DNA of 64,000 nucleotides, from the NCBI GenBank assembly GCA_018715935.1, contig DVKR01000013.1, positions 1 through 64,000 of the forward strand. Direction: 5' to 3'. The notes under the pieces are model-generated. The model was not told the origin of the DNA. It made no database searches and saw only the letters and a list, made by a program, of their open reading frames with translations. This stretch comes from Candidatus Aphodovivens excrementavium. Its GTDB lineage: Bacteria > Actinomycetota > Coriobacteriia > Coriobacteriales > Eggerthellaceae. The position numbers were made by a program, and so were the translations under genes. Shown here one piece after another: positions 3,045 to 56,672 of the stretch. How positions within the stretch are numbered: position 1 is the stretch's first letter; the number at the start of each line of letters is the position of its first letter.

Positions 3045-3050
3045 GCGTCG

Positions 3051-4340: not shown

Positions 4341-4448
4341 AAGGGGCTCTGCGGCGCGGCGGCGGCTGCGGGTCCACGCGGCGGCTCTGCGTCGGGGTGG
4401 CGGCGCGGCGGCGGCTCGGCGGCGACGGCCTCGCAAAGCCCGCAGCGA

Positions 4449-6137
4449 CTACCTGCTTTCTGCCTGATGCGAGGTCATCGGCTTCATGCCGTGTCCCGGG
4501 TAAGCGAACCACGCCACCACCAGCGATACCGCCATGCAGCACATCGCACACATGATAGTTACGGGGAACCCCGCCGCATCATTGACAATGCCCCACACCG
4601 CCGACGCAACACCGATGCCGATATCACTTGCAAGCAGGTACAAGGCATTTGCCGCGCCCCAGCGGTCGGCAGGCGAATTCTTCACCGCAACCGACTGGTT
4701 CAGCGGAATCGCCACGCCAACGCACACGCCGTAGGGCAAACCGGCCAGATAAAACAACAGCTCGTTTTGACCCCCAAACAGCGCCATCGTGAAGCCGACG
4801 AGGCCGCACGCAACGGTGACCACCATTATCTTGAAAGGCGCCACGGTGTCCATAAACGCCTTAGACACCAGGCGAACGCCAATCATGGCAACCGCCGACA
4901 CGGTATAGAACAGTCCGGCATTCGCATAGCCCAGCGAAGTGCCGTACAAACCCATAAAGAAGATCGAGAAACCGAAGGCAGGGCTGAGAATGAGCATGGG
5001 AATCATGCCGGGCAAGGCATGCGGCTCGAATATGCCGTCGATAAATTGCTTGATCTTTCGGGGCTTCTGCGGCGTCTCGGCTGTCCCGGCTGCCTCGGCT
5101 GCCTCGGCGGTGCCAGCTGCGCCCGTCCCCCCGACCGCGCCAGCCTCCCCGGCCACGCCAACGGCTTCTGCCGTTGCGACAGCGCCCGCTCGATCCACCG
5201 CTGCAGCCTCCCGCTGCGATGCGGTGCCGAACGCACCTTTCCGAGCGGCACGAGCAGCGGCCGCGTTCGCCTCGGCTCGCGGGCGATACGACGACGTCTC
5301 GGGCAAACGCGCCGGATTCTTCTCGTAGCGGCACAGCATTGCGAACACAAACGCGAGCGCCGCCATAACAGACATGCCCCAAAACAGGTTGGCGGCAGGG
5401 TCGGTGTTCACCAAAAACAGCGCCAGCGCCGGCCCAATTGACATCGCGAGCGCCTGCCCCAGGCCGTAGTAGCCAATACCTTCGCCCAGCCGCGAAAGCG
5501 GCAATACGTCTGACGCCGCCGTTGCCGAGGCGGTAGTTGCCGCAGAAAAGCCAATACCCTGCAGCACACGGCACACCGCAATCACCATCGTGTCCGACAC
5601 GAAAGCCGGCACAATAGTTCCCACGAAGAGAAACGCCGCACCGCCAACCATCACCACCACACGGCCAACGTTGTCGATGATCGGCCCGCACGCAAGTCGG
5701 GCTACGGCTGCCGCGCCCGAAAACACCGTCGCCAGAATGCCGGCGACCGTGGCTCCCTCGCCCATGTGGTCCAAGAACACCGACGTGCCCGAGTTCAAGC
5801 CCTGACCCACCACAAAGCAGCATAGCGTCATGATGATAATGAACACGAACAGCGGCGACCAAAGGCGCTCCCTTTTCGTCTCGCCTCCCCGTTTGACAGC
5901 GTCGCCCTTGCCGGCCGCGGCGCCTCCGTCGCGCACTCCCGCATTTTCGCAGGCTCCGCTCATGCCCGGCATGCGCGTGCCCTCATTATCGTGGGCTACG
6001 CTCGCACCCGGTATGCTCGCGCCCGCCTTATCGTGGGCTCCGCTCGCGCCTGGCCTGCGCGCTCCCGCATTTTCGCAGGCTCCGCTCGCGCCTTGCCTGC
6101 GCGCTCCCACCTCTGAATAACTGCTCTCGCTAGCCAC
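4449..6137 (-). CDS. MFS transporter with N-terminal tandem repeats
   Basis: About 562 residues with twelve predicted membrane helices in two halves of a major-facilitator fold, including the GPIIDNVGRVVVMVG loop between helices 2 and 3. A drug or metabolite exporter is the likely role; the substrate is unknown. Two oddities stand out. The cytoplasmic N-terminus has about five copies of a ~20-residue unit (GARRPGASGAHDKA, GTRMPGMSGACENA and similar), and the loop between the halves is an Ala/Gly/Thr-rich insertion of ~75 residues. GTG 6137 is chosen because GGGGGAGG lies six bases upstream. It overlaps the menG stop by eight bases, so translation is coupled. Confidence 0.85.
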   Translation of the reverse strand: MASESSYSEVGARRQGASGACENAGARRPGASGAHDKAGASIPGASVAHDNEGTRMPGMSGACENAGVRDGGAAAGKGDAVKRGGETKRERLWSPLFVFIIIMTLCCFVVGQGLNSGTSVFLDHMGEGATVAGILATVFSGAAAVARLACGPIIDNVGRVVVMVGGAAFLFVGTIVPAFVSDTMVIAVCRVLQGIGFSAATTASATAASDVLPLSRLGEGIGYYGLGQALAMSIGPALALFLVNTDPAANLFWGMSVMAALAFVFAMLCRYEKNPARLPETSSYRPRAEANAAAARAARKGAFGTASQREAAAVDRAGAVATAEAVGVAGEAGAVGGTGAAGTAEAAEAAGTAETPQKPRKIKQFIDGIFEPHALPGMIPMLILSPAFGFSIFFMGLYGTSLGYANAGLFYTVSAVAMIGVRLVSKAFMDTVAPFKIMVVTVACGLVGFTMALFGGQNELLFYLAGLPYGVCVGVAIPLNQSVAVKNSPADRWGAANALYLLASDIGIGVASAVWGIVNDAAGFPVTIMCAMCCMAVSLVVAWFAYPGHGMKPMTSHQAESR

Positions 6138-13363: not shown

Positions 13364-13451
13364 GTGCAAATCCGCGACCGAAACGCGCGTTTGAAGGGCA
13401 CTTTCGCGCGCGTTTCGGTCGCGGATTTGTATTTCGGTCGCGGATTTGCAC
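13364..13451. repeat. Long nested palindrome, family 2 copy A
   Basis: CAAATCCGCGACCGAAACGC (from 13367) is answered by its reverse complement at 13410-13429. A further inverted copy of the outer 20 bases (GTGCAAATCCGCGACCGAAA, 13364) ends at 13451. The same core, AATCCGCGACCGAAACGCGC, forms the palindrome at 56606-56672, so this is a dispersed element. Confidence 0.75.
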
Positions 13452-43294: not shown

Positions 43295-44119
43295 CTAGCC
43301 CAGCCACTGAGCAGTAAGAGCCTCGATGGTGCCGTCTTCCTCGAGAGCCTTGATGGCCTCATTGATGGCCTCGGTCAGGCCAGCGTTGTCCTTAGACACG
43401 GCGACGGCGTACTCTTCGCCCGTTGCCTCGGTCAGAACAACCTCGGCATCGGTGTAGGCGTCGGAAACCATCTGATCAACAACGGCCATGTCCATGCATA
43501 CCGCATTTGCCTGGCCAGCCTGCATCGCGGCAAAGCAGTCGGTGGCATTGCCATAGGGCTGCACCGTTGCGTTCGGGAAGTTCTCCTGAGCGAAGGTCTC
43601 GCCCGTGGTGCCGCTCTGAACAGCGATGATCACGCCTTCGGCGTTCAGCGCCTCGGCAGCGTTGTCGGCGGTAACGTCGCCGCCCTTCATTACGGCAACA
43701 GACTGATCGGCAATGTAGTACGGGTCGGTGAAGTCAACCGACTCGGCGCGCTCGGGGTCAACCGTGATGCCGGAGATGCCCACATCTGCCTGGCCGCCTG
43801 CCTGGATTGCAGGGACGATGCCGTCAAACTGAATGGTGGTGAATTCAGCTTCCAGACCAAGCTGCTCGGCAATTGCCTTGCCCAGATCGATGTCGAAGCC
43901 TACATACTCCTCGCCCTCGAGGTTCTCGAACGGCGGGAAGTCAGGCGAGGTGGCAATGGTGAGTTTGCCCTCGTTGATCAGCGAATAGCTGGCCTCTTCG
44001 GCAGCCGGCTCGCTGCCGCCCTGCTGCTCGGAGGACTGGCCGCTTGAGCAGCCGAACAGCGCAAGCGACGCAGCCAGAGCGCCGCAGGCGGCAAGTGCCG
44101 CCATCTTCTTGAATTTCAT
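43295..44119 (-). CDS. Amino-acid ABC transporter solute-binding lipoprotein
   Basis: 274 residues. The lipobox LALFGC puts the lipid on C24. The mature protein follows the SBP family 3 pattern: GKLTIATSPDFPPFENLEG, GFDIDLGKAIAEQLGLEAEF, FDGIVPAIQAGGQADVGISG, FTDPYYIADQSVAV, then AVQSGTTGETFA, and a C-terminal AINEAIKALEEDGTIEALT. The conserved Arg in ERAESVDF for the ligand carboxylate is present. It feeds the downstream permease and ATPase. A clear promoter is at 44218-44246. Confidence 0.95.
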   Translation of the reverse strand: MKFKKMAALAACGALAASLALFGCSSGQSSEQQGGSEPAAEEASYSLINEGKLTIATSPDFPPFENLEGEEYVGFDIDLGKAIAEQLGLEAEFTTIQFDGIVPAIQAGGQADVGISGITVDPERAESVDFTDPYYIADQSVAVMKGGDVTADNAAEALNAEGVIIAVQSGTTGETFAQENFPNATVQPYGNATDCFAAMQAGQANAVCMDMAVVDQMVSDAYTDAEVVLTEATGEEYAVAVSKDNAGLTEAINEAIKALEEDGTIEALTAQWLG

Positions 44120-44217: not shown

Positions 44218-44246
44218 ACTATACGCTTTTCATGCAAGAAACTCAA
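44218..44246 (-). promoter_or_regulatory. Sigma70-type promoter for amino-acid ABC operon
   Basis: On the minus strand TTGAGT (44246-44241), a 17-base spacer and TATAGT (44223-44218). Transcription would begin near 44210, giving a leader of about 90 bases. CTCAATTGTTGAG-type inverted sequence overlaps the -35 region and could bind a repressor. The structured element at 44289-44488 lies upstream of this promoter and so is not in its transcript. Confidence 0.7.
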
Positions 44247-44288: not shown

Positions 44289-44500
44289 ATCCCGGGGCGG
44301 GCGGAGCGGGGTTTTAGCCTCTCGATTGAGGAAAGGGATGAGAAAAACGCTTTACCGCCGTCACAGTGCGCCCGCCCGGGATCGCGTGGTGGCTCGGTAC
44401 TCTGCAAGGAGGGTATCGCGCGGGCAGCCCGCGGAAGGGGAAAGCCGCCCGCGCGAATCCTATGGTAGAAAGGAAACATCAAAAGCAGTTAAGCGAAAGA
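44289..44500. ncRNA. Conserved structured intergenic element, copy 1
   Basis: Homologous to 56361-56570. Shared parts in order are an outer helix ATCCC-(G)GGGCGGGC (44289-44302) with GCCCGCCCGGGAT (44370-44382); an inner hairpin with GAGGAAAGGGA; a small helix GTAC/GTAT; a helix GCGCGGGC/GCCCGCGC; and the single-stranded motif ATGGTAGAAAGG followed by ACATCAA (from 44462). Spacing is nearly identical in both copies, and the third and fourth helices differ in sequence but keep pairing. The coding strand is not known. The rest of 44120-44557 shows no gene. Confidence 0.5.
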
Positions 44501-44557: not shown

Positions 44558-45487
44558 TTAGCTCAGCAAAGGGCTATCAGGGGGCAGGCTGACGGAGCAG
44601 TAGCCGATGCGAGGCGGCGCGCCGAATGCGCCGTGGTAATCGGATCCGCCCGTAACGATAAGGCTGAAGCGCTCCGCCAGCTGCTCACAGCGCGCGCGGT
44701 CGGCAGGCGTGTGGTCGGGGTGATGCATCTCGATGCCGCGCAGGCCGCAGCTCACCAGCTCGGGAACAAGCTCATAGCTATCCAGTTGCCCGGGATGCGC
44801 AACCACGGGAATGCCGCCGTCTTGCGCGATGGCGCGCACGGCATCGCGGGCGTCTACGTAGGTGATGTCGCGGGCGCACAAGCCCTCGCCCTTGAATAGG
44901 CCGCGATACAGATGCACGTACTCGGGGCTTCCGTAGGGATCGTCGGTAAGCGCCGCCATGATGTGCTGCTTATAGAGGGCGGTTGAGCGCTGCGCCAGCC
45001 CCATGGCACGCGCAACGTTAACCCGGTAACCTGCGGCAAGCAGCTGATTGAGCTGCCAGCGCGAGTTGGCGTCGCGGCTCTCCAGGGTAGGTGCGCACAG
45101 CGCCTCGATGGCCGGCGAGTATTCGCGCAGGCCGTATCCCAGCACGTGCACCTTGCGGTCACGCGCGAAATCGTATGCGCTAATCTCAATGCCGCCAATC
45201 ACGCGCACGCCGAAGCGCTCGCCCAAATCGCGCGCCTCGTCAAGCCCGCGCGTCGTGTCGTGGTTGGTGAACGCCACACACCCAGCTCCCTCGCGGCGCG
45301 CCTCGTCAAGCGCTTCCTCAAACGTCAGCGAACCGTCCGACACCGTCGTATGCACGTGCAGGTCGGAGCGAATTGTGTCCGTAGCTGCGTCCGTTCCTGA
45401 AGCTACGCCCGCGCTCGCGGCTGCGCCTGCTCCCTGGGCACGCTCCTCTTTGGTCGCCGCGCCTTGCCCGATACCCTCGTCGCTCAA
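44558..45487 (-). CDS. phnPP: PHP-family cyclic phosphate phosphodiesterase (PhnPP-like)
   Basis: 309 residues. The PHP metal motifs DLHVHTTVSDG (about 42-52), FTNHDTTRGL, GGIEISAYD, VVAHPGQLD, GIEMHHPDH and GGSDYHG are complete. In Eggerthella lenta the PHP protein linked to the phn genes (PhnPP) hydrolyses both ester bonds of ribose 1,2-cyclic phosphate 5-phosphate, replacing PhnP. Position at the end of this phn operon and overlap with phnL by four bases support the same role here. The first ~38 residues are Ala/Gly-rich and dispensable-looking. Confidence 0.85.
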   Translation of the reverse strand: MSDEGIGQGAATKEERAQGAGAAASAGVASGTDAATDTIRSDLHVHTTVSDGSLTFEEALDEARREGAGCVAFTNHDTTRGLDEARDLGERFGVRVIGGIEISAYDFARDRKVHVLGYGLREYSPAIEALCAPTLESRDANSRWQLNQLLAAGYRVNVARAMGLAQRSTALYKQHIMAALTDDPYGSPEYVHLYRGLFKGEGLCARDITYVDARDAVRAIAQDGGIPVVAHPGQLDSYELVPELVSCGLRGIEMHHPDHTPADRARCEQLAERFSLIVTGGSDYHGAFGAPPRIGYCSVSLPPDSPLLS

Positions 45488-46182
45488 GCCAACACCCCCT
45501 GTTGCATGTTGAACTCATGGTCGCAAAGACCCTCCATAAAGGCAAGGTCGTGGAAGATGCCCAGCATGGTGGTGCCCTGGTCTTTTAGCTGTTCGATGAG
45601 CTCGCGCACCTTGAGCTTTGACGCATCGTCCAGCGAGGCGGTAGGCTCGTCGAGCAGCAGCAGCCGCGGACGCTTGATCATGGCAGCGGCGATGTTGAGG
45701 CGCAGCTTCTCGCCGCCCGAGAACGTGCGGGGGTACAGCTCCCACAGCTCCTCGTCAAGGTCGAAGTGGCGCAGCATGCGCTCGGTCTCGGCCTCGGCAT
45801 GGGCGCGGTCATCGACGCCGAACGCCTCCAGCGCGCTTTTGAGCACGATCTCGTAGGCGGTTTGACGCGGCAGGGCAGACAGGAACTGCGACACATAGCC
45901 TAGCTCGTAGGCGCGCAGGTACAGCATCTGACGCTGGGTTGCGGTGCACAGGTCAACAAGCCCGAACCGCTCTGAGTCATAGAGAATACGACCGGCCTCC
46001 GGCAGGTTGGTCCGCCAAATGCAACGCAGGATGGTTGACTTGCCGCTGCCGCTGCGTCCGGTGATGCCAACGAACTCGCCTGGCTGAATGCTAAAGCTCA
46101 CGTCCTCGCAGCCCTGGATGCGCCGGCCGACACGGTGCAGGGTGAAAGATTTGGACAGATGCTCGATCGAAAGCAAGGCCAT
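45484..46182 (-). CDS. phnL: C-P lyase operon ABC-type protein PhnL
   Basis: 232 residues. Walker A GITGRSGSGKST, Q loop GYVSQFL, signature FSGGEKLRLNIAAAMI, Walker B RLLLLDEPTASLD and FHDLAFME. The KSFTLH start and the sequence around LRAYELGYVSQFLSALPR are characteristic of PhnL. PhnL takes part with PhnGHI in the nucleosidase step that links phosphonate to ATP's ribose. It is two bases downstream of phnM and overlaps phnPP. Confidence 0.93.
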   Translation of the reverse strand: MALLSIEHLSKSFTLHRVGRRIQGCEDVSFSIQPGEFVGITGRSGSGKSTILRCIWRTNLPEAGRILYDSERFGLVDLCTATQRQMLYLRAYELGYVSQFLSALPRQTAYEIVLKSALEAFGVDDRAHAEAETERMLRHFDLDEELWELYPRTFSGGEKLRLNIAAAMIKRPRLLLLDEPTASLDDASKLKVRELIEQLKDQGTTMLGIFHDLAFMEGLCDHEFNMQQGVLA

Positions 46183-46184
46183 AA

Positions 46185-47678
46185 TTAGCGCACCTCCGCC
46201 TGTTGCGCGTCGCAGACCGCAGACGCGGTTGTAGACGTTGCCACCAAGCCATCTGCGTGCGTGCCTGTGGGCACGGTTGCGGTTGCGGTCGCACTCGCAG
46301 GCGCGCTGGAACGTGCTCTGTTTGCAGCCTGGCGCCTTGCTCCTGCTTCGGCAACAATCTGCGCCTCGCGCCGATCGCGCCCATAGCCGCGCGGCTGATC
46401 GGGGTAGTGGGAGCGAAACACCGAATGACCCCCCACGAACGCGCGCGTTACCACCGGCATGGTTCGGCCGGCGCCGTCGCAGGCGATCTCGCGAACCAAC
46501 AGCACGTCGGCGCGCTTGCCCACGGCGATGGATCCGACCTCGCCCGCAATGCCCGCCGCCTTGGCAGGATTGATGGTGACCAAGGAGAACGCCTTCTCAA
46601 GCGACAGGTCGCAGGCATCGCGCAACATGAACACCGCATCAAGCAGCGCTGCGGGATAATAGTCGCTGCACAGCATGTCGATAGCGCCGTCCTGTACCGC
46701 CTCGCGAGCCGACAGGTTTCCGGAATGGCTGTGACCCATCAGCACGTTCGGGGCGCCGGCAAGCGTGTGGAGGCCGCGCCGGCGCGCCTCGCGGGCAATG
46801 TTCAGTGTGATGGGGAACTCAGAAATCGCCGCCTCCAGGCCGTCCATCAGCTCCAGCTTCTCAACGCTGTCGTCGTCATGCGACGCAATTGAGATGCCAC
46901 GCTCGCGCGCAATCCCTGCAAGGGTTGCCACCTGCGCGTAAGTGAGCTTGTTCGCCTCCTGCTGGTTTTTGATGATGCGCGCCACCTCCTCGTCGGAAAG
47001 GTCGCGATAGCCTTTAAGCGTATCGGCAAAGATCAGCAAGTCGCTGTACTGGCCCTGTCCCGGCGTGTGATCCATGAACGACACCAAGTCCACCTTGCCT
47101 GAGCGCAAATACGCCTCGATGTCGTCGTACAAATCCACCGAGTCCAGCTCAACGCGCATATGCAAGCGATGGCGAATAAGATGGTCGCGCTCTTCGCTTG
47201 CACGCATAGACGCCACATGGTCGATAAGCGCGCTCACGTTGCTGAAGTCGCGGATGGGCTTGTGGTCGAAAATGCTCGCCCCGTACACCGACAGCGAATG
47301 GAAAATAGTGGTGATGCCGTGCGACACGAGCTCGCGGTCGGCCTTGTAGAGCGAGGTGGACAGGTCCATGACCACGCTCGGACGCGGAGAGGCGACGTTT
47401 TCGACATAGTCGGAATGAACGTCGATGAGGCCAGGCGTTACGTAGGCGCCGCGCGCATCAACCACCGGCAGCATCCCCGCCGTGCCGTCGGGCACCATGC
47501 CCTCCCACACGCCGCTGATTGCATCCGTTTCGCGCGGAAGCTCGGAAAGCGCCCCGCCGACTTCGGTGGGCTGGATGGCAACGATGCGCCCGTCGACGAT
47601 GACGACGTCGTGGTCGCGCAGCAGGCGGTCAGCGCACACTACCGTACCGCCGCAGATGAGGTAGGAGTTCTCGTTCAT
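46185..47678 (-). CDS. phnM: Alpha-D-ribose 1-methylphosphonate 5-triphosphate diphosphatase
   Basis: 497 residues of the amidohydrolase fold. PhnM removes pyrophosphate from the phosphonate-ribose triphosphate. Motifs seen are YVTPGLIDVHSDYVEN, MDHTPGQGQYSD, ASHDDDS, MGHSHSGN, DYYPAALLDA and NPAKAAGI. The first ~400 residues match the family; the last ~75 residues are an Ala/Arg/Thr-rich tail not found in ordinary PhnM (about 380 residues). The gap of 80 bases to phnK is the largest within the operon after phnD, with GAAAGGAAA as ribosome site. Confidence 0.93.
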   Translation of the reverse strand: MNENSYLICGGTVVCADRLLRDHDVVIVDGRIVAIQPTEVGGALSELPRETDAISGVWEGMVPDGTAGMLPVVDARGAYVTPGLIDVHSDYVENVASPRPSVVMDLSTSLYKADRELVSHGITTIFHSLSVYGASIFDHKPIRDFSNVSALIDHVASMRASEERDHLIRHRLHMRVELDSVDLYDDIEAYLRSGKVDLVSFMDHTPGQGQYSDLLIFADTLKGYRDLSDEEVARIIKNQQEANKLTYAQVATLAGIARERGISIASHDDDSVEKLELMDGLEAAISEFPITLNIAREARRRGLHTLAGAPNVLMGHSHSGNLSAREAVQDGAIDMLCSDYYPAALLDAVFMLRDACDLSLEKAFSLVTINPAKAAGIAGEVGSIAVGKRADVLLVREIACDGAGRTMPVVTRAFVGGHSVFRSHYPDQPRGYGRDRREAQIVAEAGARRQAANRARSSAPASATATATVPTGTHADGLVATSTTASAVCDAQQAEVR

Positions 47679-47758
47679 CGGTTTCCTTTCCGGAAAGGAG
47701 AATTCGTAGGTCGTTCGAAATGCCAGCGAGCTGCAGCGTCGGCTCTATTCGCCGCTCG

Positions 47759-48649
47759 TCAGAGCAGCGAATAGACCAGCTGTTGCGTGTAGGAGTGCTG
47801 AGGGTCTTCGAGGATCTGGTCGGTTAGGCCGCTTTCGATGATGCGGCCGTCCAGCATTACCAGCGTTCGGTCGGCAAGCATGCGGATGACGCCCAGGTCG
47901 TGACTGACCACCAGCATGCTGACGTCAAAGTCGCGGCGGATCTGCTGGATGAGGTCGAGCACGGCTGCCTGCACGGACAGATCCAACCCTGTGGTCACCT
48001 CGTCGAGCAGCAGGATGGGCGGGTTGTTCGACAGCGCCTTGGCAATCTGCACGCGCTGCTGCATACCGCCCGAGAACAGGCGCGGCGCATCTTTAGCGCG
48101 CGACAGGGGGATGTTCACACGCTCGAGAAGTTCCTCACCGCGGTCGCGCATGGCGCCCACCTGGCGGCTGCCGGCTGCAATCATCTGTTCGGCGATGTTG
48201 GACAGCGACGAGAAATCCATGCGCAGGCCCAGATAGGGGTTCTGGTACACCATGCCGAACACCGTGTTGCGGATGCGGCGCTTGTGCTGGGGCGACGCCT
48301 CAAGCACGTTGGCCGCGCCGCCGTCGTAGGGAGCGACGCGCACCTCGCCCTCGGTTGCTCGCTCATCGAAATACAAGCACTTCATCAGCGTCGATTTACC
48401 GCTGCCCGACTCGCCCACGATGCCCACGATCTCAGCGGGATACACGTCCAGGTTTGCGTCGCGCACGGCATGGACGGTGCCACACACGGGGCACACGTTG
48501 CGTTCGAGCTTGGCGTCGGGCGCCAGGCAATGGGGGCATCCGGCGCCAAAGCGTTTGGACAGGTGGCGCACCGACAGGCACGGCTCCTCGTCCGCACCGA
48601 ACGGACGCGCGTCGCGCACGCCATCTGCCAACTGAGTGCTAGCGCTCAC
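47759..48649 (-). CDS. phnK: C-P lyase ABC-type ATPase PhnK with Cys4 insertion
   Basis: 296 residues. PhnK is the ATPase that binds the PhnGHIJ core. Walker A GESGSGKST (79-87), Q loop VYQNPYLGLRMDFSS, signature FSGGMQQRVQIAKAL, Walker B ILLLDEVTTGLD and VVSHDLGVIRML are complete. Between the first strand and Walker A is an insertion with C38, C41, C53 and C56 (GCPHC and NVCPVCG), a probable zinc knuckle. GTG 48649 is chosen: AAGGAGGAA precedes it and it overlaps the phnJ stop by 11 bases. Confidence 0.92.
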   Translation of the reverse strand: MSASTQLADGVRDARPFGADEEPCLSVRHLSKRFGAGCPHCLAPDAKLERNVCPVCGTVHAVRDANLDVYPAEIVGIVGESGSGKSTLMKCLYFDERATEGEVRVAPYDGGAANVLEASPQHKRRIRNTVFGMVYQNPYLGLRMDFSSLSNIAEQMIAAGSRQVGAMRDRGEELLERVNIPLSRAKDAPRLFSGGMQQRVQIAKALSNNPPILLLDEVTTGLDLSVQAAVLDLIQQIRRDFDVSMLVVSHDLGVIRMLADRTLVMLDGRIIESGLTDQILEDPQHSYTQQLVYSLL

Positions 48650-49505
48650 CGTCTTCCTCCTTCCCTTGAGCCTGTTGCGCACAGCGGGCGGCGCAGAAGG
48701 CAGTGTCATTGCATTGGTAGACGGTTGCGCCCGTCGCTTCGTCAACCAGCTCGTCCAAGAACACGCCCTCGGCGCCGCACAGGCGGCAGCGCTTGCCTTC
48801 GAAGCGCTCGACCACAAACGGGTAGTCCTCGAAATCGAGTGGCTTGACATCGGTATAGGGCGGCACAGCGTAGATCTTCTTCTCGCGACCGGCGCCCAAA
48901 AGCGTGAGATTGGCGGCTTGGTTGAGCTTCATGTTGTCAAAGCGCGGAATGGGCGAAGGCGCCATCACATAGCGCCCGTTCACGAGCACGGGGTGGTCGG
49001 CGCCAGTGGTGGTGGTGCCAAACTTGACGATCTGGTCGAACAGCTCCAGCCACGCACCGGTATAGTCCGCCTCGGCGTGCAGGCGCTTGGTGACCTCCTC
49101 GCGCGGCTCGAAGCTGCGCAGCGGCTCAGGGGTGGGAACCTGCAGCACCAGGATCTGATCCTCGCGCAGCGGACGCTCGGGAATGCGGTGACGAGACTGG
49201 ATGAGAGTGGCTTCCTCGGTTGCTTCGGTCACTTCGACGTCGGTGGTTGCTGCCACCAGCTTTTTGATGTTGACGGCGTTGACGCTGTCGTCGCTGCCTT
49301 GGTCGATAACTTTGAGCACATCGCCCTTGCCGATGAGGCTGAGCGTGATCTGCAGGCCGCCCGTGCCCCAACCGCGGCCGATGGGCATCTCGCGCGAAGC
49401 GAACGGCACCTGGTAGCCCGGAATGCACACGCCCTTGATGACCGCGCGGCGAATCTCGCGCTTGGACGCCTCGTCGAAAAACGCGTAGTTATACAGCTGG
49501 CGCAT
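48639..49505 (-). CDS. phnJ: C-P lyase catalytic subunit PhnJ (radical SAM)
   Basis: 288 residues. PhnJ breaks the carbon-phosphorus bond of ribose-linked phosphonate with a 4Fe-4S/SAM radical. The four cysteines C240, C243, C265 and C271 have the exact CX2CX21CX5C pattern of the family. The glycine-rich GWGTGGLQITLS loop carries the glycyl-radical residue. ATG 49505 (MRQLYNYAFFDE) follows AAGGAGG and overlaps the end of phnI; upstream codons in frame are not part of it. Confidence 0.97.
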   Translation of the reverse strand: MRQLYNYAFFDEASKREIRRAVIKGVCIPGYQVPFASREMPIGRGWGTGGLQITLSLIGKGDVLKVIDQGSDDSVNAVNIKKLVAATTDVEVTEATEEATLIQSRHRIPERPLREDQILVLQVPTPEPLRSFEPREEVTKRLHAEADYTGAWLELFDQIVKFGTTTTGADHPVLVNGRYVMAPSPIPRFDNMKLNQAANLTLLGAGREKKIYAVPPYTDVKPLDFEDYPFVVERFEGKRCRLCGAEGVFLDELVDEATGATVYQCNDTAFCAARCAQQAQGKEEDGER

Positions 49506-50742
49506 CGTCGGCCTCCTTCCCCTCGTCGCGCGTCGAGCGGACACTAGAGAGCTTGGATTGGAACGTCACATAGTGGGGAAGCTTGAGGTGCGAGATGAAG
49601 CCGGTGGCCTCGACGCCGTCCACGTGGTAGAGCACGAACTCCTCGTCCTGCGTGGGATAGCGCCTGTCCACCGAGCTCAGGCAGCGGTCGAGCACGCTCA
49701 TGGCTATCGCCTTGGTTTCGGAGGAGCCCATCACCAGGCCGTAGCCAATCTGGAACGACAGGGTTCCGTCGGCGTTCTCGTCGCCTTCCGAGAAAAACAC
49801 GCTCTCGACCTCGGTGACAGGGACGGAGCCCAGGTAGTAAGCGTCCTCGGCAGCGCCCTGCTCGAGCGGGTGATCGACCGCCACCTCCACCATGCCGCTG
49901 CGCAGCTCGCCCACCGTGGGATGTGCGGGGCCGAACCCGCGGATAGCGGCATAGCCCAGCGCCTCAACGGCCTGCGTCATGCCGCGCGCCAGCGTCTGCA
50001 GGCGCACCGAGCGCGGGGCGGGGATGGTCAGTGGAACCATGGTTGCGTCGACCGGCGGGGTGTCGTCGGCCTGTACGGGGGCCACCAGCCCTTCGGCGCG
50101 CAAGTAGTCCAGCACGCGGGGGTACCCGTCCGCAGCGGCGGATGCGGAAGCCGCTGCGTCGACGTCGGCATTGACGCGGCTTCCGACAGACGCGCCAGCC
50201 GGGCGATCGTCGCTAGCGCGGTCGCCGGCAAATGCGTCGTCGAAGCGGCCGCCTGCCGATGCCGCATCCGCCTTTGAAACAACGGCGGCAAAATGACGCT
50301 CGAGAGAGCGACACTTCTCGGCTCGTTCGGCGTCGCCTTCTTGCTCCAAATCAAATTCGAGCAAACGATGGCTGTAGTCGCGCGTGGCGCCGAGCACCTG
50401 ACCTCCCGGCACATCCTTGAACGCAGCAGAGATACGGCGCCGCACGCGCATGGCTCCCGTGTTTACGGGGCGCGAGATGTAGGGGCGTTCGAGCGTCGAG
50501 CGGAACGCGCGCAGCAGGAACACCGCCTCGTCGGGAATGCCGGACGCTTGCTTAAGCGCCAGCGCCGCCAGACGGGGCGCATAGAGGGAAGCCTCGCCCA
50601 TCACCTGGTCGATAAGCCCGGGAAAGGCGCCCTCGATTTCCTTTACGTCGGCGGCGTCATGCGCCTTGACGCGCTCGAGCTCAAGCAGCTTGAGGCTTTC
50701 CTCGATGGCGACACCGCCGCCTTTGACCGCAACGTAGCCCAT
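49489..50742 (-). CDS. phnI: C-P lyase core subunit PhnI
   Basis: 417 residues. PhnI is the nucleosidase-like core subunit. MGYVAVKGG at the start, MGEASLYAPRLAALALKQASG, RRISAAFKDVPGGQVLG, ARGMTQAVEALGYAAIRGFGP and the late FISHLKLPHYVTFQSKL are typical. An Ala/Asp/Ser-rich insertion of ~45 residues (about 160-205) makes it longer than the usual ~355. It follows phnH with a one-base overlap; AAGGAGG precedes it. Confidence 0.95.
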   Translation of the reverse strand: MGYVAVKGGGVAIEESLKLLELERVKAHDAADVKEIEGAFPGLIDQVMGEASLYAPRLAALALKQASGIPDEAVFLLRAFRSTLERPYISRPVNTGAMRVRRRISAAFKDVPGGQVLGATRDYSHRLLEFDLEQEGDAERAEKCRSLERHFAAVVSKADAASAGGRFDDAFAGDRASDDRPAGASVGSRVNADVDAAASASAAADGYPRVLDYLRAEGLVAPVQADDTPPVDATMVPLTIPAPRSVRLQTLARGMTQAVEALGYAAIRGFGPAHPTVGELRSGMVEVAVDHPLEQGAAEDAYYLGSVPVTEVESVFFSEGDENADGTLSFQIGYGLVMGSSETKAIAMSVLDRCLSSVDRRYPTQDEEFVLYHVDGVEATGFISHLKLPHYVTFQSKLSSVRSTRDEGKEADDAPAV

Positions 50743-51380
50743 CAGCGCATCCCTCCTTCAACAGACACAGCGCTGGTGCGCGGAATTGCCACCACATTGC
50801 CTGCGGGGTCGACAAGCGCGATGTCGATGCCGCAGGGAAACTCGTCGGCGCGCTCCTGGCGCGCAGCAACCCAGCTGTCGCGGTCGACCGCGAACCGGTT
50901 GGTGTCTTTGACGCCAGGCCCCGCAACCTCCACCAGCACCATGCCCGGCTTCAAGGCCTCGTTGGCTGCAGGCGCCGAAGCGACATGCGTGCAGCCCAGC
51001 AACACCGTCGCTCCCATCTCGGGAGATGTCGGCGTGCCCGGCTTGGCGTGAGCGATCGACTCGGAAACCACCCGCGCATCGGCTCTGCCGGGAACGATAA
51101 TGAAGTCCGCCTCATCAACGGAGGCGCGGCGCGCGTGGGTCTCGGAGGCAAGGTATATAGCCGCGGCATCGGACTCTGCGTCGGCGATCGCAAACGTCAC
51201 CGCCTGGTCGACAAACAGACGAGCCAGCGCGCACAACGCACCGTCGAGGGAGGCGGGGCGTACGCCGTCTTCGGCATCGGGTTCAACCGCGCGCACCAAG
51301 CCGGGGCGCGCAAACGCGTCCAGCACCTGGCGGAACGACCGCTGAGCACGAAGCAAGTCCGCGTTGTCTGCGATCATCAT
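50742..51380 (-). CDS. phnH: C-P lyase core subunit PhnH
   Basis: 212 residues. The segment LLRAQRSFRQVLDAFARPG near the start is the PhnH hallmark, followed by CALARLFVDQAVTFAI, the central DEADFIIVPGRAD, GTPTSPEMGATVLL, and near the end FPCGIDIALVDPAGNVVAIPRT with the family's PRT ending. PhnH is a PLP-fold-related subunit without catalysis that completes the PhnGHIJ core. It overlaps phnG by four bases (ATGA) and phnI by one. Confidence 0.94.
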   Translation of the reverse strand: MMIADNADLLRAQRSFRQVLDAFARPGLVRAVEPDAEDGVRPASLDGALCALARLFVDQAVTFAIADAESDAAAIYLASETHARRASVDEADFIIVPGRADARVVSESIAHAKPGTPTSPEMGATVLLGCTHVASAPAANEALKPGMVLVEVAGPGVKDTNRFAVDRDSWVAARQERADEFPCGIDIALVDPAGNVVAIPRTSAVSVEGGMR

Positions 51381-51868
51381 CGCTGGCCCCCTTCCTCGGA
51401 AGCGTCGCCGGAGGCGGCGCCGGGTTCGTCCATCGTCGAGAAATCCACCTTGGTGCGCTGAACCAGTTGCTGCTCGGCAGCCTCACACGCACGGATCCGC
51501 GCTGCCTCCTGCGCCAGGCGGTCGTCCCAGCGCGCGGCAAAAGCAGCGCCGCCCGGACCTGAAAACGCCGCGTCGATCACGGCCAACTCGTAGGCACGGC
51601 AGCGATTGCTGCCCAAAAGCAGCCCCAGCCCTACCGTCTCGCCTACGCGCACGCGGCACGACGTCATGAGCGCCTCGCCCAAATAGAACAGGCTTCCCTG
51701 CGCCGTCTCGCGCACCTGAACCATCACCAGCTCTTCACGCGGCTCGTCGAGCACCGAGATCACAGGCGCGCCGTCGCCGCCCACTCCCGCCTCGACATCT
51801 CGCACGATCTCGGACGCCAGCGAGGGATTCCCCTCCACCAGCACCCGAGTCCGTTCGTAACGTTTCAC
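51377..51868 (-). CDS. phnG: C-P lyase core subunit PhnG
   Basis: 163 residues from GTG with AAAGGAA upstream. RGLVMVQVRETAQGSLFYLGEALMTSCRV is represented here by LVMVQVRETAQGSLFYLGEA followed by TSCRVRVGETVGLGLLLG, the diagnostic PhnG core. RAYELAVIDAAF follows. The last ~45 residues are variable, rich in Ala, Glu and Arg. It starts 46 bases after the upstream phnE copy. Confidence 0.93.
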   Translation of the reverse strand: MKRYERTRVLVEGNPSLASEIVRDVEAGVGGDGAPVISVLDEPREELVMVQVRETAQGSLFYLGEALMTSCRVRVGETVGLGLLLGSNRCRAYELAVIDAAFSGPGGAAFAARWDDRLAQEAARIRACEAAEQQLVQRTKVDFSTMDEPGAASGDASEEGGQR

Positions 51869-51913
51869 TTGGGTTTTTCCTTTCGTTATCGATCGTTGTC
51901 GCGCGCCGGACGC

Positions 51914-52765
51914 CTACTTCTGCACGATGTAGCGCTTGCGCAGACGCGTCGCCATCACCTCAAGAACTACTGCCACCGCCAGGCACAAGTACACGATCAG
52001 CCCGATCTCGTGGATGTTCAGATAGAAGCTTCCGGCAAGGAACAGCTGGTAGCCAATGCCGCCCGCGCCGGCAACGGCGCCTACCGCAACCGCGTTGACG
52101 AAGTTGATCTCAAAGCGGATGAACGTCCACGACAGCATCTCGTTGACCTTCTCGGGCACCACGCCCGAGAACACGACCTGCCACCAGGACGCACCAGATG
52201 CGCGTAGTGCCTCCAGCACGCCGGGGTCGGCTTCCTCGAAGCTTTCGGAGTACGCCTTTACCAGGTACGCGACGCTGTGGAACAAAAGACCGGTAACCGC
52301 GGCTTCGGCGCCCAGGCCGATGGCGACGCTGAACACCATGACCCACAGAATGGTGGGCACCGCACGAGCAACCGACATGATGGCCTTGATGACGTTGCTC
52401 ACCTTGTTGTTGGTAAGGTTTCGCGCCGCCAACAGCCCCAGCACAAATGCGATGAGAGCGCCAATGAGGGTGGTGAGCAAGGCCAGCGCCAGCGAAACGA
52501 ACAAGCCCGTGATCACGTCGGCAAGCGTGAAGTGCCCCGCCAGACCCGGCTGCGTCATCATGGTGAAGAAGTCGCCGCACGCCTCGCCCAGCGCCTCGAA
52601 AAACGACACGTTGCCGTAGTCCATCGTTGCCATGGCGAACACCGTGAGCGCCGCCAACACCACAAGCGTCACCAAGAGCGCCCGGTTGGAGCCCGCCAAC
52701 AGGCGCGTCTTGATCTTTCCAGAACGCGTGAAGCGCGCTCCGGGCAGGTTGGCGCCGTCCATCAC
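51914..52765 (-). CDS. phnE: Phosphonate ABC transporter permease PhnE (second copy)
   Basis: 283 residues with about six helices. The ABC permease loop EADPGVLEALRASGASWWQV, then FSGVVPE, and VTGLLFHSVAYLVKAYSES are PhnE hallmarks. The last helix ends in a basic RLRKRYIVQK. It is a diverged partner of the other PhnE at 53016, so the transporter probably uses a heterodimer. The start (ATG, rightmost 52765) overlaps the small gene upstream by four bases. Confidence 0.92.
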   Translation of the reverse strand: MMDGANLPGARFTRSGKIKTRLLAGSNRALLVTLVVLAALTVFAMATMDYGNVSFFEALGEACGDFFTMMTQPGLAGHFTLADVITGLFVSLALALLTTLIGALIAFVLGLLAARNLTNNKVSNVIKAIMSVARAVPTILWVMVFSVAIGLGAEAAVTGLLFHSVAYLVKAYSESFEEADPGVLEALRASGASWWQVVFSGVVPEKVNEMLSWTFIRFEINFVNAVAVGAVAGAGGIGYQLFLAGSFYLNIHEIGLIVYLCLAVAVVLEVMATRLRKRYIVQK

Positions 52766-52962
52766 AGGCTCCCCCGCGCATCGTGGCGCTCGTAGGCGTA
52801 CTCGACCGTGCGCGGCGCGTCCTCAGCGACCTTGCCGGCAGAGCCGGCGCCCCAGCCCAAGCGCTCGAACAGCGCGTCGGTCAGCCTAGAGCGGGCAGGA
52901 GATCCCGCCTCGGCGGCAAGCAGCGTGGCGTTAGCTCGAGCGGCAATTGTGTAAGCAGTCAA
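52762..52962 (-). CDS. Small conserved-position protein between the two phnE genes
   Basis: 66 residues starting at TTG with AAAGGGA four bases upstream, ending ATGA-coupled with the second phnE gene. No membrane segment is present. The sequence includes RSRLTDALFERLGWGAGSAG and VEYAYERHDARG, which matches no family I recognise. The four-base overlap and the fit in a tightly packed operon favour a real gene, but a chance frame in GC-rich DNA is possible. Confidence 0.4.
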   Translation of the reverse strand: MTAYTIAARANATLLAAEAGSPARSRLTDALFERLGWGAGSAGKVAEDAPRTVEYAYERHDARGSL

Positions 52963-53015
52963 TTTTTCCCTTTCTCACATCTTTTCCCAGTTCACCGGCT
53001 TATATGCCGAGTGGG

Positions 53016-53882
53016 CTACATGATCTTGCGACGAACGTAGTTGGAGGTCATCTCGCAAGCGATAACCACGATGATGATGCCCAGCAACACCAGCCCAGCA
53101 ACGTCGTAGCGGAAGCTCTTGTAGTAAATGTCGAACACGAATCCGATGCCCGTGCCGGTTAGAATGCCAACCAGCGTCGCATCGCGAATGTTGGTCTCAA
53201 TCATGTAGAGCACCCAGCTGATCACCGAAGTGATGGAAAGTGGGATCACGGCCTGGGTGATGATGGCGCCGTAGCTCGCGCCCGACGCACGCAGCGCCTC
53301 AACGGGGCCGGCGGCAAGCTCGTCGATGTTCTCCAAAAAGCAGCGCACCAAATAGCCGAAGCTGGTAAGGAACAGCGCCAAAAACCCGGTGAAGTCGCTC
53401 TGCTTGAACGAGAACAGAAGGATAAACGCCCATGCCACCGTCGGAATGTTGCGGAACAGCGACGCAATGCCGCGCACGATAAGCGGAATGGGGCCGCCCA
53501 GCCCCACCGAGCGAGAGCCCAGCACGGCAAACACATAGGCAATCACCGCGGCAAGGCAGCTGGCGGCAACCGAAACCAAGATGGTTGATCCCAACGCCGG
53601 CAGGATGGCGTCCAGCTTCTCGAAGGACTCCACCGTCGGGACGAACTCGACGGCCATCCAGGCAAACCCGCTGGGAATATCCATCAGGGCGCCCAGAAAA
53701 TCGAAGCCGACATACACGCCCGACAGTGCATTGACCGCAATGAACACCAGCCCGGCAGCAACAACCGCAACGGTGCGTCGCCGGAAAAACGCGTTTGCCT
53801 TCTCGGGCGTCTCTGCCGCGGGAGACGGAGACCCACCGGCGCCAGGGCCGCCGCCTGCAAGGGCGAATTTCGCACTCATCAC
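53016..53882 (-). CDS. phnE: Phosphonate ABC transporter permease PhnE (first copy)
   Basis: 288 residues, about six helices. The permease loop AGPVEALRASGASYGAIITQ, then VIPLSITSVISW, plus IASLFRNIPTVAWAFILLFSF are typical. The start overlaps the phnC stop by four bases (ATGA). About 30 N-terminal residues are Gly/Pro/Ala-rich. It follows phnC, as in standard phnCDE sets, and it has 53 bases to the small gene after it. Confidence 0.92.
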   Translation of the reverse strand: MMSAKFALAGGGPGAGGSPSPAAETPEKANAFFRRRTVAVVAAGLVFIAVNALSGVYVGFDFLGALMDIPSGFAWMAVEFVPTVESFEKLDAILPALGSTILVSVAASCLAAVIAYVFAVLGSRSVGLGGPIPLIVRGIASLFRNIPTVAWAFILLFSFKQSDFTGFLALFLTSFGYLVRCFLENIDELAAGPVEALRASGASYGAIITQAVIPLSITSVISWVLYMIETNIRDATLVGILTGTGIGFVFDIYYKSFRYDVAGLVLLGIIIVVIACEMTSNYVRRKIM

Positions 53883-54697
53883 GCCACCGCCACGCCTGAC
53901 AGGGACGGCGGCACCGCATCGGAGGATCCGTAGATGTTCTCGATGGTGGCGCGATTCAAGGCATACGGCGAGCCGTTAAACACGACCTCGCCCTTTTTTA
54001 GGCCGACGATGCGATCGGAATACTCGATCGCAAAGTCAACCTGGTGAAGGTTCACCAGCACCGCAATGCTCCGCTCGTTGGCAACGCGGCGCAGGTGATC
54101 CATGACGTTGCGAGACGAAGCAGGGTCGAGGCTGGCAATAGGCTCGTCGGCAAGGATGAGCAGTGGATCCTGCACCAACGCGCGGGCAATGCCGACACGC
54201 TGCTTTTGGCCGCCCGACAGCTGGTCGGTGCGGGTGTAGGCGAAATCCGCCAGCCCAACCTCGGCAAGCACCTCAAAAGCGGTGCGCTTCTCCTCCTCGG
54301 TGTACAGCCCCAGCAGGCCGGCCAAGGCCGACTTGTACCCCAAGCGCCCCTGCAGCACGTTTTCGATGGAAGACGCGCGGTACACCAGGTTGTAGTGCTG
54401 AAACACCATGCTGATCCTGCGGCGCACCTGTCGCAGTTCGCGCCCGCGCACCTTGGTGATGTCGGCACCGTCGAAGGTCACCGTTCCTTCAGAGGGGTCA
54501 ATCAAGCGGTTGACGCAGCGCAGCAGCGTCGATTTGCCGGCACCCGACGGGCCGATGATAGAGACGAACTCGCCTTTGCCGATTTCCAGGTTGATCCCCT
54601 CTTCCCCGCCGAGCGCACGCGTTTTGCCGTCGTAGCTTTTCGCCACGCCGGAAAGCGCCAGCAGGGTTTCACGCTTTTGATTCATGCAGCCTCGCAT
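53879..54697 (-). CDS. phnC: Phosphonate ABC transporter ATP-binding protein PhnC
   Basis: 272 residues. Walker [17 protein letters not shown] loop [21 protein letters not shown] (a PhnC hallmark), signature [15 protein letters not shown], Walker [16 protein letters not shown] and [19 protein letters not shown]. All ATPase motifs are intact. It could start at 54697 or at 54685 (MNQKRE); the second has a slightly better ribosome site. It follows phnD by 26 bases. Confidence 0.94.
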
Positions 54698-54722
54698 CCT
54701 TCTTGCTTCGCTTGTTCCGTTC

Positions 54723-55801
54723 CTATGCGCTCAACTCGCGGATGGGGTCATACCAGTCGTCGGTCACCTCGACGAAGCAGGTCTTGTCGGAGTCTTTCTC
54801 GAAGATGCCCTTGGCGTTCTCATCCTCGGGGTCAACGAAGATCTGCTCGTTGTTGGCAACTGCGTCGGAGCAGAAGTAGTCAACGATCTTGGTGCGCGTG
54901 TCGTCGTCGATGGCCTCTTCGTTGAAGCAGATGGGCGAGTTGAGAACGGCGGAGATGCCGATGATGGTGAACTGTTCGCCAAGCACGCTGTCGAAGGGAG
55001 CCTCGGCATCAGCCTTCACCTGGTACACGGCGCCAACCGTGTTCGCCTCGCCTTCAACTAGGTCGAAGTACATGTCAACGTCAACGTCGTCGAATGCGGC
55101 GGCGTCGGCGTCGCCGGAAAGCAGGTTGACCGCCGAGCCCTGATGGGAGTTGCCGAACAGCACCTCGGAGAAAAACGCGCCGCCCTCAAGCAGCTCGTCG
55201 GAGCTTTCCAGGCCGAAGTGGCTCACGATGGTGCTGGAGGGCACCTTGAAGCCGGAAGTGGAAGTGGCGGACACGAACGAGAAAGAGCCGCCCTTGATGT
55301 TGTCGATGGAGTAGCTGTCGCCGTCGGCGTAGTTGGCGGCGTTTTCGGTCTTCACGCAAATGCGGCTGTAGTAGCATGCGCCTTCAAGACCGCCCTCTTC
55401 GTCGCTGTTGGTGAACGCGGCCTGAACCGAGGGGTTCTGGGCGTTCGCCTGGACGTAGCCTTCAGGGCCAAGCAGCGCCATCTGCGCCTGGCCGGAGGCG
55501 ATTGCCTCGATGGCGACGTGTAGTCGGTGGTGGTCATAAGCTCGGCGTCGCGGCCGCACGCCTCCTTGATGGCGGCGCCAATTGCCTCGCGAGAAGAGGT
55601 CAGATCCGAAGAGGAGTTGTCGGGCAGCCACACCATGGTGATGGGCTCGGTGGATCCGCCGTCGGAGGATCCGGCATCTGCGGAGCCGGCTGCTGCGCCA
55701 CTGCCGCTTGCCGTGCAGCCGGTCATAGCGACGACGGCGCCCGCAGCAAGGGTTGCGCCTCCAATCAAGAAGTTGCGTCGGGACATCTGGTGTTCTGCCA
55801 T
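54723..55801 (-). pseudogene. phnD: Phosphonate solute-binding protein PhnD, frameshifted
   Basis: Two overlapping frames together give one full PhnD. Frame 1 (from ATG 55801, GAAAGGA upstream) encodes a Tat-type SRRNFL signal with lipobox AMTGC and continues to Y94. There a single missing base (at about 55519/55520, TAC-ACG where TAC-CAC is expected) shifts the frame. The remainder, HVAIEAIASGQAQMALLGPE and on to VTDDWYDPIRELSA, continues in another frame to 54723. Both halves look intact on their own. It is either a recent inactivation or a sequencing error in a short run of G/C. Confidence 0.9.
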
Positions 55802-55930
55802 GGTTCGGTTCCTTTCGTTGTGGGTATCGGCTGCGCAGTGCAGCGTTGCCTATCGTAGGAACGCGGAGTCAAAACCACGTCAGATGAGATTCAGAGACAC
55901 GCAAAGCTTTTTACAAATTCACGCAACAAC

Positions 55931-55993
55931 TTGATCAAATTTGACAAAAAGGACGCAAGAAACTGGTAAAACCCCTGGTCAAAATTGATACGA
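55931..55993. promoter_or_regulatory. Paired operator-like sites upstream of phnD
   Basis: TTGATCAAATTTGACAA (55931-55947) and, inverted, TGGTCAAAATTGATACG (55978-55993) share the core ATCAA-TTTGAC in opposite orientation, about 30 bases apart. They lie 130-190 bases upstream of the phnD start in an AT-rich stretch. They look like two sites for one dimeric repressor or activator of the phn operon. No regulator gene is in the operon. Confidence 0.5.
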
Positions 55994-56085
55994 AACAAGC
56001 AGGAATTCCAAAATCCGCTTTACTGAGTCTTTAACGAAAAGACGCACGACACAGAGCAGCCACGCCCGACAAGCGCGGCAGGAGG

Positions 56086-56292
56086 CGAGCGGGCGATACG
56101 CCGAGCACCCGCAAGGAGCCCGGTGGTGAGGGTGCCAAAGGGGCGCATCTAAGACACCTCATCATTTCGCTTTTTGCGCCCCAAATCCCTGCGTTCGGGA
56201 CGGAAACGAGCGGGTGATGCGCCGGGCACCCGCAAGGACGCTGGCGGGGAAGGCGCCGAAAGCGGTTCTTAGTAGAACTCCCCTTTTCGGCG
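56086..56292. repeat. Tandem pair of two-hairpin units
   Basis: The unit GAGCGGG(C/T)GAT(A/G)CGCCG, (A/G)GCACCCGCAAGGA and a GG-rich end occurs at 56086 and 56207. Each unit folds a first hairpin (GCGGG/CCCGC at 56089 and GCGGGTG/CACCCGC at 56210) and is followed by a second: GGGGCGCA (56140) with TGCGCCCC (56175), and CGCCGAAA (56254) with TTTCGGCG ending 56292. Second-hairpin sequences differ but each pairs. The repeat distance is 121 bases. No gene spans the region. Confidence 0.55.
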
Positions 56293-56360: not shown

Positions 56361-56570
56361 ATCCCAGGGCGGGCAACGCCGCATCGAGTCTCTTGCATGA
56401 GGAAAGGGACGAGACCTGTTCGCATGCTGCCTGAATTTGCCCGCCCGGGATAACGTAATGTTCCATACCTGCCCTTCGTATTTCTTGAACGCAAGCCAGA
56501 TAGGGAAGGAGATTTGCTTGCGCAACGAATATGGTAGAAGGGCGACATCAAGCAAAGCTCAGCAGAAGTT
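56361..56570. ncRNA. Conserved structured intergenic element, copy 2
   Basis: Homologous to 44289-44500. Outer helix ATCCCAGGGCGGGC (56361-56374) with GCCCGCCCGGGAT (56439-56451); inner hairpin and GAGGAAAGGGA (56398-56409); helix ATAC/GTAT; helix CGCAAGC/GCTTGCG; then ATGGTAGAAGGG followed by ACATCAA (from 56531). Outer-helix end to the last motif is 80 bases in both copies. It lies between phnD (minus) and a radical SAM gene (plus). Either strand could be transcribed. Confidence 0.5.
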
Positions 56571-56605
56571 AAAGATTGCGATAAATCGCCGACCCCCTGC
56601 GCAAA

Positions 56606-56672
56606 CAAATCCGCGACCGAAACGCGCGCGAACGCGCCCCTCGGACGCGCGTTTCGGTCGCGGATTCGTCGG
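56606..56672. repeat. Long palindrome, family 2 copy B
   Basis: CAAATCCGCGACCGAAACGC, then a short GCGC-rich loop, then GCGCGTTTCGGTCGCGGATT. This is the same core as the palindrome at 13364-13451. No T-run follows, so it is unlikely to be a plain terminator. It lies directly after element copy 2. From 56673 to the gene start at 56894 nothing further is seen. Confidence 0.75.

Follow-up and report, generated by a model that had tools for sequence, protein, structure and literature searches.

Two putative Pho-type promoters with predicted structured leaders flank the phn operon of an Eggerthellaceae-like gut bacterium

RESULTS AND DISCUSSION

In the 64,000-nucleotide window (the whole stretch of DNA analyzed), the two similar intergenic segments at 44289-44500 and 56361-56570 are best described as a pair of putative Pho promoters with predicted structured leaders that flank the phn operon. 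The element is real and appears to be selected; a new class of RNA is not demonstrated by it. Each copy is likely to be a Pho-driven unit on the minus strand that produces either a short structured leader or a small RNA. This interpretation offers a candidate phosphate-starvation promoter motif for a little-studied family, tied to pstS and to the C-P lyase genes, and it presents a case in which a promoter on the wrong strand passed for a conserved RNA loop.

Conservation of the two copies and assignment of the transcribed strand

An alignment of the two segments extends over ~210 nt and needs very few gaps, and in both of them 80 nt separate the end of the outer helix (44382 and 56451) from ATGGTAGAA, confirming the similarity and near-fixed spacing given in the preliminary description. 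Identity between the copies was 59/61 inside five blocks picked by eye (TTGATGT, TTCTACCATA, the two arms of the long hairpin D1, and the D1 loop) and 59/148 outside them. The blocks are far beyond chance, while the ~40% identity of the remainder is near the level obtained by aligning unrelated sequence. The outer helix (ATCCC.GGGCGGGC/GCCCGCCCGGGAT) is intact, with 13 to 14 bp in either copy. Two inner helices had been proposed to carry compensatory changes. One stands, in that GCGCGGGC/GCCCGCGC versus CGCAAGC/GCTTGCG differ in their bases and keep pairing in both copies; this covariation rests on two sequences because searches of the family, viral contigs, and 84,980 species genomes gave no further homologue of the entire unit. 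The other, a 4-bp GTAC/GTAT helix, is absent from every minimum-energy fold. The fold stability of the whole copies is modestly above that of shuffled sequence (z -2.7 and -2.2). Selection on the two-copy element is supported, and RNA is probably made from it.

Three stretches (GAGGAAAGGGA, GGTAGAA, and ACATCAA) are invariant between the copies and had been regarded as unpaired parts of an RNA. Read on the minus strand, the TATGGTAGAARGG..ACATCAA block becomes TTGATGT..TTCTACCATA, which has the form of a Pho-type box, with 6-mers recurring at 11-bp intervals, together with a -10 element. This conserved 3' block is shared with pstS and phnD and has the layout of a Pho box, which argues that GGTAGAA..ACATCAA is a promoter on the other strand rather than an RNA loop; the invariance holds, and its explanation changes. 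The plus strand, assumed at the outset, was likewise set aside; the same motif read on the minus strand precedes phnD at 55847-55885 in the window. The predicted strand of transcription is therefore minus, and we regard the assignment of a minus-strand Pho-type promoter as highly probable.

An unrecognized structured RNA class on the plus strand, as originally suggested, is by comparison very improbable. Plus-strand folds equal minus-strand folds in stability, and the plus-strand loops are purine rich, both of which are consistent with that proposal. However, its conserved 3' block coincides with the minus-strand promoter common to pstS and phnD, no plus-strand promoter or terminator beyond chance was detected near copy 1, and an extension of copy 1 on the plus strand enters the antisense of phnPP. 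A plus-strand 13-codon peptide (ATGGTAGAA..) present in both copies was discarded when the block was recognized as a putative promoter, and a plus-strand riboswitch or GGA-motif small RNA (CsrA sponge) was discarded as lying on the wrong strand.

Pho-type promoters in the window and in related genomes

Copy 1 carries the candidate promoter CGCTTAACTGCTTTTGATGTTTCCTTTCTACCATAGGAT (44457-44495, minus strand), in which the direct repeats CTTAAC and TTTGAT recur every 11 bp and the -10 element TACCAT lies at ~44467-44462. In copy 2 the corresponding site is TGCTGAGCTTTGCTTGATGTCGCCCTTCTACCATATTCG (56526-56564, minus strand), with TACCAT at ~56536-56531. The phnD gene has a Pho-type promoter of its own, ATCTGACGTGGTTTTGACTCCGCGTTCCTACGATAGGCA (55847-55885, minus strand), recognized by motif, matrix rank, and exact match. 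The layout is CTTAAC-N5-TTTGAT-N..-TACCAT in copy 1 and CTGAGC-N5-CTTGAT in copy 2, and the phnD and pstS sites are alike; direct repeats spaced by 11 bp thus stand just upstream of the -10 element in both copies. When minus-strand sites are compared, the window phnD reads TTTTGACTCCGCGTTCCTACGATAGG, L206 reads TTTTGACGTCGCGTTTCTACGATGTG, and the two copies read TTTTGATGTTTCCTTTCTACCATAGG and CTTGATGTCGCCCTTCTACCATATT. A weaker second Pho-like site (score 16.0) is located at 55934-55972, just upstream of the phnD promoter.

A matrix built only from the phnD-upstream sites of other genomes gave copy 1 the top score in the window (29.9) and ranked copy 1 first, phnD second, and copy 2 fourth of ~128,000 positions, a ranking that is partly circular in that those sites were chosen with a matrix holding the window sites. 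As a Pho site, copy 2 scores clearly lower than copy 1 (12.7 versus 29.9). A scan of the pstS locus retrieved a single outstanding site, ACCTTATCAGTTTCTGATAGCCGGTTTCTACCATAGGCA, in the phoU-pstS gap in the sense orientation (23.2, where the 99.99th percentile is 7.2); the matrix predates our look at pstS, and the version used for scoring added phnD-upstream sites of other genera and no pstS site. Both congeners have the motif in the gap before pstS (scores of 30.0 and 30.8). These own-genome and congener pstS sites are the cleanest evidence for the motif. The cleanest count is that of TTYCTACSATAGG, which matches the 2.08-Mb genome exactly at three places only, namely, pstS, phnD, and copy 1. 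Within copy 1, TTTCTACCATAGG (44459-44471) similarly has just two further exact matches in the genome, at pstS and phnD.

In other genera, the best site upstream of phnD is similarly placed (~250 to 340 nt before residue 58 in most) and has a weaker motif, with repeats such as CTGAAC..CTTACC..TTCTTACGAT. When the phn regions of other genomes were compared with the 3' half of the element, weak matches appeared before phnD, both in L206 and in the window. In the congener G018, the region upstream of the binding-protein gene also contains a Pho-like site (score 23.3). The same motif is found before pstS and phn genes both in this genome and in relatives.

The Streptomyces PHO-box consensus is GTTCACC. 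The repeats described here, which are candidate sites known from sequence alone, differ from both the E. coli and the Streptomyces consensus, reading CTKAM / TTTGAY with a -10 element of TTYCTACSAT. In architecture, they resemble the Pho boxes of PhoP (Actinobacteria) and PhoB, with direct repeats every 11 bp before the -10 element and a location upstream of pstS and phn genes (PMC7866108). The PhoP targets upstream of the Streptomyces pstS are two direct repeat units of 11 nt each, and Pho control also extends to the phn operon of E. coli (PMC7866108).

Predicted hairpins of the leader

The hairpin designated P2 begins directly after the promoter. In copy 1 (44416-44456, minus strand) it comprises 15 bp with the C/U-rich loop CTTTCCCCTTCC (fold z ~-2.9). 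In copy 2 (56475-56528, minus strand) it is predicted from folding as GCGCAAGC/GCTTGCGT, with outer TTCGT/ACGAA pairing and the C/U-rich loop ATCTCCTTCCCTAT. A strong P2 is predicted for copy 1 and a weak one for copy 2, where the stability of the inner part alone equals that of shuffled sequence (z ~0). The helix with compensatory changes is P2, a 5'-proximal hairpin such as is predicted in other Pho-type leaders. Promoter-near hairpins of unrelated sequence were predicted in 14/14 Pho-type leaders folded (12 besides the copies), a comparison read without a shuffled control and among GC-rich leaders, which often fold some hairpin. Since such a hairpin is predicted near the promoter in all 14, the covariation of P2 would require no new RNA class.

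Downstream of P2, the long hairpin D1 occupies 44289-44382 in copy 1 (minus strand, 94 nt) and 56361-56451 in copy 2 (minus strand). The copy 1 hairpin has the arms ATCCCGGGCGGGC and GCCCGCCCCGGGAT and a terminal loop with the invariant TCCCTTTCCTCA (44327-44338), which in copy 2 lies at 56398-56409. Copy 2 D1 has a fold z of -3.3 on the minus strand and -3.5 on the plus strand. Minus-strand D1 folds alike in both copies, with the invariant C/U-rich UCCCUUUCCUC in the terminal loop, and the arms and this loop are near invariant. D1 is thus probably under constraint in both copies.

Similarity of D1 to phnE

D1 resembles the coding sequence of phnE, which encodes a phosphonate ABC permease. Both copies of D1 align in the sense orientation with residues ~73 to 105, with 61 to 67% identity to L206, and nhmmer scored D1 against the L206 phnE at 27.5 bits (E 1.3e-6), whereas 60 shuffles gave at most 11.5. 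When the arms were removed, the phnE genes of L206 and L199 still ranked first and second in ~0.57 Mb, with a score that falls within the range of the interior's own shuffles. Copy 2 D1 has a phnE-like frame reading IPGG..SSLSS..LPALG. The likeness of D1 to phnE thus exceeds that of the shuffled controls and keeps the same register. In contrast to a phnE gene, copy 1 D1 has frame-breaking indels, the likeness stops at the outer ends of the arms, and there is no start site or remaining gene. The element had been characterized as a selected RNA and not a coding sequence or plain repeat; selection and, probably, RNA are retained from that statement, and the separation from coding sequence is not, given that D1 is constrained yet resembles phnE. 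The phnE of the window is less D1-like than the phnE of other genera, and antisense pairing to phnE mRNA was discarded for this reason. Small minus-strand reading frames gave no Pfam matches. The long inverted repeat of D1 also occurs within phnE coding sequences of other genera (L206:11092-11182 and L199:4807-4893), where its orientation matches that of the minus-strand unit.

Searches for RNA families and further copies

In agreement with the initial statement that no known riboswitch, RNase P, tmRNA, SRP, or 6S family is recognizable, Rfam returned no match at the gathering threshold in the window and only chance-level matches around both copies at E values up to 5. BLASTN of both copies against 138 family genomes and phages retrieved chance fragments only. 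Pattern searches of IMG/VR viral contigs and 84,980 species genomes, rescored with the covariance model, gave matches at the level of chance, and a tail pattern allowing up to three mismatches retrieved no homologue from 137 genomes. A covariance model built from both copies (R1), as had been recommended, detected no other full copy and no convincing third copy in the window or the genome. The whole-genome model search is insensitive and a weak negative, as it missed a 45.5-bit match in G039 that was seen by a direct scan of the phn region. A candidate third copy at C22 of the genome was discarded, as it lies inside an apparent dprA.

Possible roles of the minus-strand unit

Each unit would consist of a Pho-type box and -10 element followed directly by P2 and then by D1, which would present its C/U-rich loop. 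When phosphate is scarce, the 11-bp direct repeats would be bound by a PhoP/PhoB-type regulator, which would turn on, from a start site that we infer downstream of the -10 element, a short structured RNA of at least ~165 nt, with its end likewise placed by inference. The UCCCUUUCCUC loop might then pair with purine-rich ribosome-binding sites, such as those of the neighboring binding-protein gene (AGGAAAGGGG) or of pstS (GAGGAAAGG). Among 55 starts tested for complementarity to the D1 loop, the binding-protein site was the best real gene and the pstS site was fourth. This complementarity may be a coincidence, because the binding-protein gene retains its purine-rich ribosome-binding site in congeners that lack the element. 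The most likely job of the pair, proposed with low confidence, is that of Pho-induced regulatory leaders or small RNAs acting through such loop-to-ribosome-binding-site pairing.

Several known small RNAs have comparable features. LhrC is multicopy, is under two-component control, and has UCCC loops (PMC4132741), and IsrR is a C-rich small RNA (PMC9410917). The element is like LhrC, FsrA, and RsaE-type C-rich Gram-positive small RNAs in having hairpins with C/U-rich UCCC loops suited to Shine-Dalgarno pairing; C/U-rich single-stranded hairpin loops are present here as UCCCUUUCCUC in D1 and in the loops of P2. It differs from them in that no sequence relation was found, in the phylum and signal, in being predicted from sequence, and in the terminator: no clear Rho-independent terminator that would end a short transcript follows D1 on the minus strand.

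Three uses of the minus-strand unit can be considered, and the weights given to them are shares within the preferred explanation, as they differ only in what the unit does. A pair of Pho-induced small RNAs, encoded by independent genes under a two-component system and blocking the Shine-Dalgarno sequences of uptake genes with C/U-rich loops, is possible, if doubtful. The diverged copies retain the promoter, the hairpin arms, and the UCCC-type loop; the best complementarity is to the ribosome-binding site of the adjacent transporter gene, with pstS within the top five; and there is precedent in two-component-controlled multicopy small RNAs with UCCC loops (PMC4132741). This use has to be reconciled with weak terminators (no strong intrinsic one follows D1 on the minus strand), with the lack of homologues in our searches, and with the facts that purine-rich ribosome-binding sites are common and that the same site occurs in congeners without the RNAs. 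Should the short RNAs be real regulators, they would form a Pho-controlled small RNA pair, of which the literature searched describes no case for this lineage. The units may instead act as leaders of the downstream genes, a somewhat unlikely use in which copy 1 would supply the solute-binding-protein operon with a distal Pho promoter and a long leader, copy 2 would serve phnD as a distal promoter, and translation or readthrough would be tuned by the hairpins. Both copies are oriented toward binding-protein genes, the congener G018 also has a Pho-like site before the binding-protein gene, and when the long transcript is folded, its minimum-energy structure pairs TTCCTCTCCCC, just after copy 1 D1, with the binding-protein ribosome-binding site GGGGAGAGGGA. 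Nonetheless, the binding-protein gene and phnD each have a nearer promoter of their own, and copy 2 lies ~560 nt upstream of phnD.

The similarity to phnE raises the further, unlikely prospect that the copies were left behind by deletions in an older phn operon, with a Pho promoter and leader that were fused to a piece of phnE, duplicated, and are now decaying. The sense match of D1 to phnE (L206, 27.5 bits; the copy 2 frame) points in this direction. At this place in the congener G017, moreover, the phn operon has decayed by internal deletions joining phnC/phnE and phnG/phnPP pieces, which is one route by which a phnE-like fragment could arise. However, the arms, loop, and promoter are kept near perfectly while the rest is ~40% identical, and neutral relics do not evolve in this way; that the phnE of the window is less D1-like than those of other genera also argues against a relic. 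A scenario that combines these elements, in which a Pho-induced small RNA pair was born from a phnE fragment under a Pho promoter and regulates transporter translation by loop-to-ribosome-binding-site pairing in this Eggerthellaceae-like gut bacterium, is improbable as a whole.

Genomic surroundings

The near-complete phn (C-P lyase) operon, phnD-C-E-E-G-H-I-J-K-M-L-phnPP (44558-55801, minus strand), lies between the two copies. Its phnD is frameshifted near 55520, at ~residue 100 (two overlapping tblastn pieces, window 55517-55645). With phnD split and the rest of the operon intact looking, this reflects either a pseudogene or an assembly error. Downstream of copy 1 is a gene for an amino-acid-type ABC transporter solute-binding protein (43295-44119, minus strand), with the ribosome-binding site AGGAAAGGGGAGAGGG complementary to the D1 loop. 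It has a separate predicted sigma-70 promoter, TTGAGT-N17-TATAGT (44218-44246, minus strand), whose GCATRAAAAGCGTATAGTG portion is retained by both congeners.

The same binding-protein gene is preceded by other arrangements in the congeners. In G017 (L296, G017:C17:176001-184000, ~2600-4900), a decayed phn operon lies upstream of it, with phnC and phnE pieces adjoining, a second phnE that is whole, and an N-terminal phnG beside a C-terminal phnPP. In G018 (L298, G018:C12, 6199-6543), the gene is immediately preceded by a Pho-like site, a hairpin, and a reading frame of 86 codons that belongs to no known family.

Two repeats were also noted near copy 2. Between copy 2 and phnD, 59-nt direct repeats (GGAGGCGAGCGGGCGATACGCCGAGCACCCGCAAGGAG..) at 56081-56139 and 56202-56260 are 78% identical with a 121-nt spacing; they had no Rfam match and are possibly another structured element. 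A dispersed palindromic repeat (CCGCGACCGAAACGCGCG..CGCGCGTTTCGGTCGCGG) occurs in at least two places, at 56605-56669 and 13367-13448 of the window.
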